Part shown: one piece after another, positions 4,884 through 15,214 of the stretch
Layout of the letters: every line of letters begins with the position of its first letter
Position numbering within the stretch: position 1 is the stretch's first letter
DNA from: Chloroflexota bacterium
GTDB taxonomy: Bacteria; Chloroflexota; Dehalococcoidia; SHYD01; JACQUQ01
Direction of reading: 5' to 3'
DNA length: 42,846 nt
Assembly (NCBI GenBank): GCA_016210175.1
Contig: JACQUQ010000214.1
Span: 1 to 42,846, forward strand
Program-made: the position numbers and the translations under genes
Notes under the pieces: model-generated
Told to the model about the DNA's origin: nothing
Seen by the model: the letters and a program-made list of their open reading frames with translations, nothing else
The model's database searches: none

Positions 4884-5165
4884 TTAGCTGCCGGTCGCCC
4901 GCCACGGCTCGGTGGCGCCGGGCTGCATTTCCCGCGAAGGTCGCAGCAGCTTGTTGAACATCCCGAAGCTGATGAGGGTAGGCGCCCACAGGCCCACGAA
5001 CACCGACTCCCAGCGTCGGCCCATGAGGAAGAGCCAGGCAGAGGTCAGGACCGAGGCAGCCATCGCCCAGAAATAGACGTTGGTAGGGACCTCCTCCAGT
5101 TGCTGCATGGCCTGCCGGCCCTGCTCCATCGCCTGCCTACCCATCTGGCCGGGTTGCGTGGTCAT
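4884..5165 (-). CDS. Small conserved-type membrane protein (93 aa)
   Basis: Two hydrophobic segments (VYFWAMAASVLTSAWLFLM; WESVFVGLWAPTLISFGMF); good RBS context (aaggaggata upstream). Confidence 0.7.
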   Translation of the reverse strand: MTTQPGQMGRQAMEQGRQAMQQLEEVPTNVYFWAMAASVLTSAWLFLMGRRWESVFVGLWAPTLISFGMFNKLLRPSREMQPGATEPWRATGS

Positions 5166-5301: not shown

Positions 5302-6798
5302 CTACAGCGCAGCCAGTCCCTTCAGCTCCAGGGTGGTCACCGCTCCCGTCGCCAGGTCGGCCACCCGGATGGCGTGGTTGTTGGTGTCGGCGATGTAGAC
5401 CTTGCCCGCGGCGATGGACAGGCCACCCGGCTCGTAGAAGAGCGCCGCCGCGCCCGGCCCGTCCCGGTGGCCCGGCTCGCCCTGCCCCAGCCAGGTCGTC
5501 ACGGCACGCGTCTGGGGGTCGGCCCGCTTGATCTTGTTATTGTAGCTGTCGGCCACGTAGAGCACGCCCTCGTGGGAGCACACGCCCAGGGGGTGCTGGA
5601 GCCGCACCGCCTCGCCCACGCCATCCACGTCCCCGAACTCAAAGAGGCCCTGCCCCACGATGGTCTGCACCCGACGGGGCGCGCCCGTAAGGTCGGCGGT
5701 GCGCAGGGCGCTGGTCTCACTGTCGGCGACGTAGAGCCGGGTCCCATCACTGGTGAGGCCGCTGGGCTGGGCCAGCCACGCCTGGCTCAGGGGGCCGTCC
5801 CGCAGCCCCTCGTGGCCGCTCCCGGCGTAGGGCTGCGCCACCCCGGTCCGCGGGTCCAGGCTCCAGAGCTGATGGCAGCCCGCCATCGCAATCAGCAGGA
5901 TACCCTCGTGCAGCACCAGGTCCCAGGGAGAGTTGAGGGCCGTCTCCCGGTCCGGTCCTCCCTGGGGTACCCCCATCGCCTGTTCGCCGGTCCCGGCCAG
6001 GGTAGCCACTGTCCCGTCCCGCAGGTCCACACGGCGGATGGCGTGGTTCTCGGTGTCGGCCACATAGAGGAGATCCCCGTCCAGGGCCACCCCCTGGGGC
6101 CGGTTGAACTGGGCCTCCGCCGGAGGGCCGTCCCGCAGCCCGATCTGGCCGCTCCCGATCACCCGGCGTATGGTCCCGTCCAGCCCGGCCACCAGGATGC
6201 GGTCGTGGTTGGAGTCCACGATGAACAGCCGGTCCGAGGCGGCGTCGGCCAGCACCTTGCCGGGGAAGGACAGGTCCGTGGGGCGCTCCTGCTCGGGCCG
6301 GAAGCGGAGGGGCGTGCGGTCCAGCAGCCCCATCGCATCGAACTGCGCCACCATCTCCCCAACGAGTTGCTCCAGGGTCTCGTACGGGACTTCCCCTTCC
6401 AGCTTCCCGATGACCTTCCCTTGGGGGTCAATGAACATCAGCGTCGGCCAGGCCCGCACCGCGTACTCCTGCCAGATGCGGAAATCGCGATCGTTGACCA
6501 CGGGGTGGTCCACCTGGTAGCGCAGGACCGCCTTGCGCACGTTCTGGGTGGCGTGCTCCGACGGGAACTTGGCCGAGTGGACGCCCACCACCACCAGCTC
6601 CTGGTGGTAGCGCCGTTCCAGCTTCCGCAACTGCGGAAGGAGGTGCATGCAGTTGATTCAGCAGTAGGTCCAGAAGTCGAGCGCGACCGCTTTGCCTCGG
6701 AGCTCTTTGATGCTGAGCGGATGGTCGGTGTTCAGCCAGTCCAGCCCCGGCGGAAAGTCCGGGGCGTTGACGGTGCCGAGGTAGGAACGGTTGGGCAT
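5302..6798 (-). CDS. Candidate selenoprotein: thioredoxin-like domain + NHL repeats (NHLRC2-like), Sec encoded by in-frame UGA at 6658-6660
   Basis: Two abutting same-frame ORFs (6661-6798 MPNRSY...ALDFWTYC and 5302-6657 [14 protein letters not shown]...) separated only by TGA; family motif expected as WTYCCINCMH; SD AAGGGAG upstream of ATG at 6798; hairpin just downstream of the TGA. Confidence 0.75.
6622..6639 (-). promoter_or_regulatory. Candidate bacterial SECIS stem-loop
   Basis: Minus-strand CTTCCGC-AGTT-GCGGAAG, 7-bp perfect stem (8 if A-T closes), loop 26-29 nt after the UGA, G at loop position 2. Confidence 0.55.
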
Positions 6799-7072
6799 GC
6801 GGGTCTCCCTTTCCGGCGCGGCCCCGCACGCTGGCCGGGCGCCGACCACTGCCGCGGGCGCACTGACGCTCTCTCTGGATTGTGCCGCCTTTTGCCCTGG
6901 ATGTCCAACGGTATCCAGGCCCAGAAACCGATCAGGACGGCGAGGCTCCCGCTGATCCATTCATAGACAAATATTGGAAGAGGCCGTACACTACCTGATA
7001 ATGGACGGGACGTAGTCCTGGACTCCGTATGAATTGCACGAGGGGAATGGGCGTGCTGGCGCGCCATACTAC

Positions 7073-8683: not shown

Positions 8684-8883
8684 CGATCATAACGCACCGA
8701 TGCGGCAGTGCCAAGGGGGAATACAGGAAGCTGCGCTGCCCGGCGACCCGGCCGCTTTTCCAGGCGATCACCTGGCCAAACGGCGGATGTGCTCCTGCGG
8801 CGCCAGGTGTACTGTAGGAAGTGCGAGACCACATGGCACGTTGGGGTACGGCAGTGCCCGCAGTGGCCGGGCAGGAGGGGAAC

Positions 8884-9807
8884 ATGGCGCAACCGGAGCA
8901 GGCAGGGGCGACCGGCGTGTTGGCCGGGCTATCGGATGAACTGGCAGGGGCAGTCGAGCGGGCGGCAGCCGCGGTAGTCCGGGTGGACGCCCGGCGTCGG
9001 CTGAGCGCCAGCGGGATCATCTGGGAGGCAACGGGCCTGGTGGTCACCGCCGACCATGTGCTGGAACGGGAGGAAGATATCACGGTCGGCCTGGCCGATG
9101 GGCGGGACCTGGCAGCGACCATCGTGGGCCGCGATCCGGGCACCGACCTGGCGCTGCTGCGGGTGGAGGCCCAGGGCCTGGCCGCGGCGGCGCCCGGTCC
9201 GGCCCCCCGCGTCGGGCACCTCGTACTGGCCCTGGGACGCCCCGGCCCGGGCGGGCCGATGGCGACGGCCGGCATCGTGAGCGCGCTGGGCGGCCCGGCC
9301 CGGACCTGGCGCGGCAGCCGGCTGGAGGGGTTCATCCGCACCGATGCGGTCCTGTACCCCGGCTTTTCCGGTGGGCCGCTGGTGGATGTGACCGGGCGGG
9401 TGCTGGGCCTCAATAGCTCCCACCTGGCCCAGGGGATGAGCCTCGCCATCCCGGTGGAGAGCGTTGCCCGCATCGTGGCGGCGCTGCTGCAAACCGGCCG
9501 AGTGCGGCGCGGCTTCCTGGGTATCACCAGCCAGCCGGTCCTGCTCCCCATCGGGCTGCGGCGCCGCCTGGATCTGGACCAGGAGACCGGCCTGCTGGTC
9601 GTGGGAGTAGAGCCGGACGGCCCCGCCGACCGCGGCGGCATGCTGCTGGGTGATGTGCTGGTGGGCCTTGCCGGAGCGCCGGTGCGGGATACCGATGACC
9701 TGCAACGCCTGCTGACCGGCGAGCGGATAGGGCAGCCGACACCCGTGCGGGTCATTCGGGGCGGCGAGGTGCGTGACCTGACCATAACGGTCGGTGAGCG
9801 GCGCTGA
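8884..9807 (+). CDS. HtrA/DegP-like S1C serine protease with PDZ domain
   Basis: His (VVTADHVLE), Asp (GTDLALLRV), Ser (PGFSGGPLVDV); C-terminal PDZ-like GLLVVGVEPDGPADRGGMLLGDVLVGLAGAPV; start refined to ATG 8884; no obvious signal peptide. Confidence 0.85.
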   Translation: MAQPEQAGATGVLAGLSDELAGAVERAAAAVVRVDARRRLSASGIIWEATGLVVTADHVLEREEDITVGLADGRDLAATIVGRDPGTDLALLRVEAQGLAAAAPGPAPRVGHLVLALGRPGPGGPMATAGIVSALGGPARTWRGSRLEGFIRTDAVLYPGFSGGPLVDVTGRVLGLNSSHLAQGMSLAIPVESVARIVAALLQTGRVRRGFLGITSQPVLLPIGLRRRLDLDQETGLLVVGVEPDGPADRGGMLLGDVLVGLAGAPVRDTDDLQRLLTGERIGQPTPVRVIRGGEVRDLTITVGERR

Positions 9808-9831
9808 GTCACGGGTACGGGGAGGTGTCCC

Positions 9832-10719
9832 ATGGCGATCGTAGCAACGCCCCTCCTGGAGCAAGCCTCCGCGGAGGTGGCTGCCCTGGCGGCGCAGGTG
9901 CAGCCGAGCCTGGTGCTGGTGCAGACGCCGGGCGGTGGCAGCGGTTCCGGCATTATCTGGAGCGCCGATGGGCTGATCGTGACCAACCATCACGTCGTTC
10001 CCCATGGGCAGGCTGAGGTAGTGCTCCAGGAGGGCCGCCGGCTCCCGGCAGCCGTGGCCTTCCGCGATCCACGGCGGGACCTGGCAGCCCTGCGGGTACC
10101 GGCCCAAGGGTTGGCCCCGGCCACGTTCGGCGATTCCACCCGGCTGCGGGTGGGGGAGCTGGTGCTGGCCGTGGGCAATCCCCTGGGGCTGCGCGGCGCG
10201 GCAACCGTGGGGGTCGTCAGTGGCCTGGGGCGGCGCTTCGGGCTACCGGGACGCCGGGGACAGGAGGTGATTCAGGCGGACGTTGCGCTGGCGCCGGGGA
10301 ACTCCGGCGGCCCCTTGCTGGACGTGCAGGGCCGAGTCGTGGGGATCAACGCGCTGATCCTCTCGCCCGGCATGGCCCTGGCTGTGCCCAGCCATGTCGC
10401 CCAGGCTTTCGTGTCAAACGAGGACGGCGGCGTCCGGTTGGGGATCAGCGTCCAGGATGTGGCGCTGTCGCCCGCGCTCCAGGCGCGCACCGGCAGGGCG
10501 CGGGCGCTGCTGGTGGCAGATGTGGTCACCGGAGGCCCGGCGGACCTGGGCGGACTGTTGCCGGGCGACCTGCTGCTGGCCCTGGAGGGGCAGCCCGTCG
10601 CGACCACCGACGACCTGCTGGACCGTCTGGCAGAGCAGCGTCCGGGCGTGGCGCTACGGGTTGCCACCCTGCGGGGCGGGCGATTACGCACGGTCGTGGT
10701 GCTGCCCGTGCGCGCCTGA
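9832..10719 (+). CDS. Second HtrA/DegP-like S1C serine protease with PDZ domain
   Basis: IVTNHHVVPHG, RRDLAALRV, APGNSGGPLLDVQG; PDZ-like ALLVADVVTGGPADLGGLLPGDLLLALEGQPV; no obvious signal peptide. Confidence 0.88.
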   Translation: MAIVATPLLEQASAEVAALAAQVQPSLVLVQTPGGGSGSGIIWSADGLIVTNHHVVPHGQAEVVLQEGRRLPAAVAFRDPRRDLAALRVPAQGLAPATFGDSTRLRVGELVLAVGNPLGLRGAATVGVVSGLGRRFGLPGRRGQEVIQADVALAPGNSGGPLLDVQGRVVGINALILSPGMALAVPSHVAQAFVSNEDGGVRLGISVQDVALSPALQARTGRARALLVADVVTGGPADLGGLLPGDLLLALEGQPVATTDDLLDRLAEQRPGVALRVATLRGGRLRTVVVLPVRA

Positions 10720-13983: not shown

Positions 13984-15214
13984 CCGGGCGGTGTCAAAGT
14001 CGGGCGGGCAGGGCACCGATAAGGCTCAAGGTGTGGAGTGGATGGGCATCGTCGTGCCGCAGCGCAGCAGCGATGTTCTTCCAGCCCGTCTGCCGCAGCA
14101 GACCGATACAGGCATTACGCAACGCGGCCAGCGCCTGCGGTGCACTGCCTTGGTGCGTCTGCCCGGCATCCTCGCCCATGGTCACATCCCGCACGTAGTA
14201 CAGCCGGTTCTCGATCCCCCAATGCCCGCGCCAGGAGCGTTGCAGATGGTCGGCACTGGCCTGCTCGTGGGTCAGGCTGGTCACCGCAGACGTGGTCTCC
14301 TGCGCCACCTCCCCGGTGGTGATGGTCACGCGCTCGCAGGTGCGGCGCAGGACGTGGCCGCCCCCTGGCCAGTTGCGCCACCCGTTCAGGGCCGTGCTGG
14401 CCTCCAGCGTTCTGGTCTCCAGCCGGCCATGCCCCTGCTCGCAGCTCCGGTAGGTCCAGTATGCGGCAGCCTTGGCGTCTGCCAGCCACGGGGGCGTAGC
14501 GAACAACTAGCGATGGCGGCGCGGGTTTCCGGCTGATGGTCCTTGACGACCATGAGGGAGTGCCCGACCCGGTCCAAAATCCGCGGCGCCAGGTCCCGCT
14601 GGGCCAGAGCGCAGCTACCGTGGTGACCGTGCCCCGCAAGTCGCGGTCATCGTGCCGGTGCGGGGCGGCGGTCATCTCGTTGGATTGCTCCTCGGCCTGG
14701 GTCTGGCCCAGCACCAGCGTGCTCGTGTGCCGCATCAGCGACACCAGAGGACACGGCGCTCCGTGTGCGCTGGCGCCCTGCACCTGCTTGCCGTCTCTCG
14801 CCTGCCCCAGCAGCCCAGCGTGGGCAGAGGTTGCCTCCTGTTCCCGTGCGGCGGCGTAGCGGCCCAGCCGCGCTTCCACCACACGCACGTCGACCGTCCG
14901 TAGCGTCCGCCGCAGGGTGGCCTCATTGGGGAGCCGAGTGGGCTGCGGGCCGAGCGCCGCGTGCAGCGTCTCGGCAGGTTCCCGCACCCATTGGGCTATG
15001 GCCCGTCCGTGCCGCTGGCCGCGCACCAGCGCGGCCCCGATGCGGATCAACCGCAGGCTCCATGGGTGCCGTACCCCGCGCCGCTTCCTGGGGTCGGGCA
15101 CCTCCCGCAGCGCCGCCGCCCATGTCGTATCCTGATCCTCGTCCATCGTGTTTCCTCTTCCCGTCTCTCACCTGGGGGAGTTTCCGCGATGGACACGACT
15201 TTGAAATAACCCTG
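13984..15214 (-). mobile_element. Degenerate ISAs1-family-like insertion sequence
   Basis: Transposase remnant flanked by imperfect IRs CCGGGCGGTGTCAAAGTCG (13984) and CGACTTTGAAATAACCCTG (ending 15214), about 14/19 matched; no clear target duplication. Confidence 0.6.
13994..15146 (-). pseudogene. ISAs1-family transposase with at least two frameshifts
   Basis: N-terminus MDEDQDTTWAAALREVPDPRKRRGVRHPWSLRLI; middle ILDRVGHSLMVVKDHQPETRAAIAS in another frame (14386-14577); C-terminus LFATPPWLADAKAAAYWTYRSCEQGHGRLETRTLEAS...WGIENRLYYVRDVTMGEDA in a third segment. Confidence 0.8.

Follow-up and report, generated by a model that had tools for sequence, protein, structure and literature searches.

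The interrupted frame and its encoded protein

The window, a stretch of 42,846 nucleotides from a Chloroflexota genome bin (contig JACQUQ010000214.1), bears on its minus strand a frame that starts with an ATG at 6798 and ends with a TAG at 5304–5302. The frame is interrupted by a single TGA, but otherwise is open across 498 codons. The features assigned to the gene are as follows.

5302–6798, minus strand: gene for a predicted NHLRC2/SOQ1-type selenoprotein with thioredoxin and NHL β-propeller domains, 498 aa with the TGA read as Sec
6805–6810, minus strand: Shine-Dalgarno-like AGGGAG in the sequence, ~6 nt upstream of the ATG
6343–6774, minus strand: thioredoxin-like (TlpA/DipZ-like) domain, ~residues 9–152 (Pfam Thioredoxin_8, 58 bits; model)
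6658–6660, minus strand: in-frame TGA, codon 47, predicted Sec in C-U-I-N-C (UxxC), from the TGA/Cys alternation in 150 homologous loci
6649–6651, minus strand: codon 50 (TGC), putative resolving Cys of UxxC, Cys in 150 of 150 homologues
6622–6639, minus strand: predicted bacterial SECIS, CUUCCGC-AGUU-GCGGAAG, loop starting 25 nt after the UGA, G at loop position 2
5308–6267, minus strand: six-bladed NHL β-propeller, ~residues 178–497 (Pfam NHL, 97 bits; model; Foldseek to 6g7w/7djm)

Codon 47 lies in the context ALDFWTYC-[TGA]-INCMHLL. Standard ORF calling yields two pieces of the gene, a stub of 100 aa and an ORF of 448 aa that begins with an ATG at 6648, in agreement with the first-pass annotation which had held that the gene was split at the Sec codon. 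The frame described there, from the ATG at 6798 with its upstream Shine-Dalgarno sequence, through the TGA at 6660–6658 and across 498 codons to 5302, was confirmed in the sequence. A TGA flanked by open frame is nothing unusual in this GC-rich window, in which 31 TGA codons are preceded by >45 open codons and followed by >150. The case for a selenoprotein therefore rests on homology and RNA structure: the full-length match across the TGA, the TGA/Cys pattern at codon 47 and the hairpin that is tied to the TGA each exceed chance.

Almost all of the read-through product aligned with the lumenal domains of Arabidopsis SOQ1 (7djj, 438 bits) and with human NHLRC2 (6gc1, 397 bits), and both halves of the frame formed one continuous match that spans the TGA. 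The CC(I/V)NC motif of NHLRC2 and SOQ1 appears in the window protein as C-U-I-N-C, with Sec in the place of one Cys. The earlier assignment of Sec to the first Cys of CxxC stands with a refinement, as the residue aligned with the TGA is also the latter of the two adjacent Cys in CCINC. The best thioredoxin match of the protein in Pfam was Thioredoxin_8. An AlphaFold2 model built on 23 sequences from the window and related loci had a pLDDT of 94.2, and Foldseek matched it to 7djk (SOQ1) with a TM of 0.94 and to 6gc1 (NHLRC2) with a TM of 0.91. Helix α1 begins at residue 47 in the model, and it is at the start of this helix that thioredoxin folds usually carry their redox residue. Trp-117 and Pro-118, which are invariant in the 23 sequences, occupy the predicted cis-proline position, WP(T), that faces the motif. 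In the NHLRC2 structure, the CCINC motif is located in a cleft between the thioredoxin-like and NHL domains (PMC6107167). The C-terminal β-stranded domain of animal NHLRC2 is absent from the sequence and model of the window protein, which stops at residue 498 directly after the propeller. The window selenoprotein probably is cytosolic.

Codon 47 and the downstream hairpin in homologues

The first-pass annotation had envisaged either Cys or a further TGA at residue 47 in homologues, and only these states were found among 150 related loci: TGA at 78 (71 distinct proteins), TGC at 46 and TGT at 26, with no other codon. All 78 TGA genes are from Chloroflexota, an assignment made partly by kinship to the window genome. 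The Cys forms derive from Acidobacteriota, Armatimonadota, Planctomycetota, Verrucomicrobiota and others, and from a minority of Chloroflexota. Cys50 was invariant. Residue 46 is mostly Cys, which is kept in 73 of the 78 Sec forms and replaced by Ala or Gly in five; in seven Cys forms it is Gly. In a sample of 399 genomes from the phylum, the gene was present in 82 and an in-frame TGA was recorded in 59 of these, a value that is slightly too high as the TGA of genome G391 is its terminal stop and its codon 47 is TGC (L164). The TAG and TAA codons listed beside TGA in several genomes of this sample fell outside the aligned gene in those that were retrieved. Scattered stops, which the first-pass annotation had named as grounds for refutation, were absent from the checked homologues apart from one extra in-frame TAG each in L024 (residue 92) and L077 (residue 81) that may reflect sequencing error, decay or recoding.

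Were the UGA a true stop, the locus would be a pseudogene, a product of sequencing error, or a gene that yields only the 448-aa protein from the ATG at 6648. That ORF does exist, and the bin to which the window belongs is fragmented. However, the same lone TGA occupies the same codon in the 71 distinct Chloroflexota proteins with the frame intact, and the hairpin described below tracks the TGA state. Moreover, a product starting at Met51 would lack both the redox motif and a strand that is conserved. Termination at codon 47 is very improbable on these grounds.

The bacterial SECIS is a stem-loop immediately 3′ of the UGA whose small apical loop includes a G (PMC1088965). The window hairpin corresponds to this definition, being placed directly 3′ of the UGA with a G in its small apical loop. 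A hairpin was found downstream of the UGA in all 78 TGA genes with the consensus (C/U)UUCCGC-AGUU-GCGGAA(A/G), together with compensated variants. Pairing in the same register was complete (7/7) in 66 of the 78 Sec forms and reached 6/7 in a further nine, giving 75 in total. In the remaining three (L151, L153, and L157) the stem is shifted by one base and encloses a three-base GUU loop. Among the 72 Cys forms, four reached six pairs and none reached seven. Two-sided changes were observed at pairs 24/31 (GC-CG), 22/33 (CG-GC-UA), 21/34 (UA-CG-GC), and 19/36 (UA-CG), and compensated stems included CUGGCGC-AGUU-GCGCCGG (L140), CUCUCCC-AGUU-GGGGGAG (L147 and L149), CUUCCCC-AGUU-GGGGAAG (L166), and UUGCCGC-AGUU-GCGGCAA (L175). 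Paired cells numbered 130 of 140 compared to 85.5 ± 4.5 with random synonymous codons (maximum 100 in 5000 trials). A SECIS search had been proposed at the outset, and a bacterial-type hairpin with compensatory changes does follow the UGA. No meaningful match to the hairpin was obtained in Rfam, as expected because the SECIS is a variable, coding-region element. Overall the hairpin appears to be a typical bacterial SECIS that is missing from most Cys homologues.

Codons 55–58 in the Sec forms are nearly fixed as CCG CAG TTG CGG, and the Leu57 codon is TTG in all 78 Sec forms versus 14 of 72 Cys forms. Residues 54–59 mostly read (F/L)PQLRK in the Sec forms and (I/L)PDLK(K/R) in most Cys homologues. 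These patterns are read as a hairpin that dictates codon choice, such that the RNA may have shaped the protein at residues 54–59.

Selenium machinery and changes between Sec and Cys

The window genome (3.47 Mb in 274 contigs, 91% complete, 6.6% estimated contamination) encodes SelA (458 bits), SelB (356 bits), and SelD (382 bits), as well as a tRNA-Sec with the anticodon UCA that scored 70 bits against an Rfam cut-off of 47. Thus, selA, selB, selC, and selD, whose absence would have told against the earlier proposal, all were located in the host genome. The genome is fragmented and its contamination means that a sel gene could be misbinned, but many relatives share the association. Full-length SelA was detected in 27 of 28 Sec-form genomes versus 13 of 20 Cys-form genomes that were chosen by hand (p = 0.006), and in the phylum sample in 56 of 57 versus 20 of 24 (p = 0.025), both p values being uncorrected for relatedness. 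One TGA-form genome in each test was without full SelA, namely that of L021 and G418 (77% complete), and these probably are assembly gaps. The SelD of the window genome (L018, G000:C109:2242-3171) is itself a predicted selenoprotein with one in-frame TGA in an LASCAG-U-AAK loop.

That a suppressor tRNA or a changed code lets the UGA be read as Cys or Trp, with no part played by selenium, would accord with the Cys at position 47 of other homologues. Against this, TGA terminates 14 of the 33 candidate genes in the window, which indicates that the genetic code is standard and TGA an ordinary stop; the tRNA-Sec carries the anticodon UCA; and the SECIS hairpin would be purposeless. Decoding as a standard residue consequently has only a slight probability. 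The homologues, hairpin, and Sec machinery instead support the UxxC selenoprotein proposed in the first-pass annotation, and the gene product almost certainly is of this type, with thioredoxin and NHL-propeller domains.

Phylogenetic trees require six to eight changes between Sec and Cys, of which three are forced by strongly supported branches, although rooting is uncertain and the Cys clade from outside Chloroflexota is poorly placed. There may have been one origin of Sec followed by losses. Several Chloroflexota Cys forms retain Gln56 and Arg58. In one family, f76, the Cys forms L155, L156, L158, L177, and L190 possess a “fossil” hairpin with one or two pairs broken, and their relatives L159 and L165 still carry TGA. 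The Cys forms of this group are probable reversions from Sec, with which the decayed hairpins are consistent.

Proposed catalytic role and relation to known proteins

The entire proposal, a selenoprotein of NHLRC2/SOQ1 architecture in which Sec47 is directed by a SECIS and participates in thiol-disulfide chemistry, is very probably the best explanation of the data. Sequence, RNA, and genome evidence support the predicted Sec coding, SECIS, machinery, and fold. SelB and Sec-tRNA-Sec would bind the hairpin just 3′ of the UGA and Sec would be inserted at codon 47, the position held in homologues by the first Cys of CxxC. This would place Sec47 at the N-terminus of helix α1, within the cleft that separates the thioredoxin-like domain from the NHL propeller. 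The Sec47 selenolate would attack an oxidized substrate docked in the cleft, most likely by thiol-disulfide chemistry, and Cys50 would resolve the mixed selenenylsulfide. The resulting U47-C50 bond may be reduced by a cellular thiol system, the reductive direction, the substrate, and the recycling partner all being conjectural.

A disulfide reductase role is somewhat favored. A selenoprotein with another activity, such as reduction of peroxide or methionine sulfoxide, redox sensing, or chemistry at a vicinal Cys46-Sec47 pair, is possible but has the lesser probability. The CCINC motif of NHLRC2 is an unusual one (PMC6107167). Insulin was not reduced by the human protein or by its thioredoxin domain (PMC6107167), and a classical disulfide-reducing activity thus cannot be taken for granted. 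The status of SOQ1 as a true reductase is debated (PMC8614926, PMC10173003), and DTT failed to reverse the altered mobility of the SOQ1 target (PMC10173003), yet SOQ1 supplies reducing power to its target according to a later study as cited in the same article. The retention of Cys46 in most Sec forms is compatible with a vicinal pair; its replacement by Ala or Gly in the others, set against the invariance of Cys50, favors the UxxC pair. No conserved neighboring genes that point to a substrate were found around the homologue copies, and bacterial NHLRC2 homologues likewise were reported to have no conserved neighbors (PMC6107167). A 93-aa protein with hydrophobic segments is encoded at 4884–5165 on the minus strand, just 3′ of the selenoprotein gene; Pfam gave no match for it, and no homologue of it was found beside other copies of the selenoprotein gene.

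Among proteins of known structure, human NHLRC2 (6gc1) shares the thioredoxin-like domain and six-bladed NHL propeller (~43% identity in the fold match) and the conserved cleft with its CCINC motif (PMC6107167), but has Cys in place of Sec at the first CxxC position and a C-terminal β domain that the window protein lacks. The lumenal region of SOQ1 (7djj/7djk) is the best match by both sequence and fold, although SOQ1 has an additional HAD domain and transmembrane helix, is active in the thylakoid lumen, and has Cys rather than Sec. The C-terminal domain of Mycobacterium tuberculosis DipZ (2hyx) has the TlpA/DipZ-like thioredoxin fold and an SCINC motif (PMC6107167), but is a Cys form without an NHL propeller. 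Sec-containing thioredoxins have UxxC in a thioredoxin fold in common with the window protein (PMC13188914), but not the propeller fusion.

No family of the NHL-propeller or NHLRC2 type is listed in a 119-family inventory of prokaryotic selenoproteins (PMC13188914, May 2026). The window protein passes the cut-off of none of the selenoprotein models in NCBIfam, and no description that links selenium with NHL, NHLRC2, SOQ1, SAR202, Chloroflexota, or β-propellers was found in the open-access literature. Two entries are predicted UxxC thioredoxin-like selenoproteins: the “Thiol-disulfide isomerase-like protein”, with four Sargasso Sea sequences (PMC1088965, PMC13188914), which is filed under Thioredoxin_8 (PMC9312934), and the “Redoxin family protein” (PMC13188914). 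Both entries take their names from the thioredoxin part alone, and no NHL propeller appears in the inventory names and domain codes on which the comparison was based. These loosely named entries could include fragments of the window family or of the single-domain relatives L112 and L221 described below. Computational support therefore extends to an apparently new Sec form of the known NHLRC2/SOQ1 architecture. More tentatively, the Cys46-Sec47 pair and Cys50 might constitute an active site unlike that of ordinary UxxC thioredoxins in an undescribed Chloroflexota-wide family, and the whole NHLRC2/SOQ1 family might perform a redox reaction that selenium accelerates in Chloroflexota.

In mammals NHLRC2 is an essential protein, and FINCA disease results from its mutation; SOQ1 is the plant counterpart of NHLRC2 and controls photoprotection. 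Sec at the first CxxC position, kept across Chloroflexota and sometimes reverted to Cys, would furnish independent evolutionary evidence for a catalytic redox nucleophile, and its occurrence in a cousin of NHLRC2 points to real redox chemistry in the NHLRC2/SOQ1 family. Natural Sec enzymes of this family may be usable for substrate trapping. In many genomes, the annotated ORF for the selenoprotein gene probably is split or truncated.

Two single-domain TlpA/DipZ-like ORFs of 282 and 212 codons (L112 in G026 and L221 in G414, respectively) read FWT(Y/F)G-[TGA]-INC, with the hairpins CCCGC-AGUU-GCGGG and UUCCCUC-GGU-GAGGGAA after the TGA. They apparently represent a second, propeller-free group of UxxC selenoproteins in Chloroflexota.

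Elsewhere in the window, a transposase (DDE_Tnp_1_assoc) at 13994–15146 on the minus strand has a frame that apparently is broken into two overlapping ORFs. Two tandem HtrA-like (Trypsin_2 and PDZ) proteases are encoded in the same frame at 8821–10719 on the plus strand with a normal TGA stop between them.
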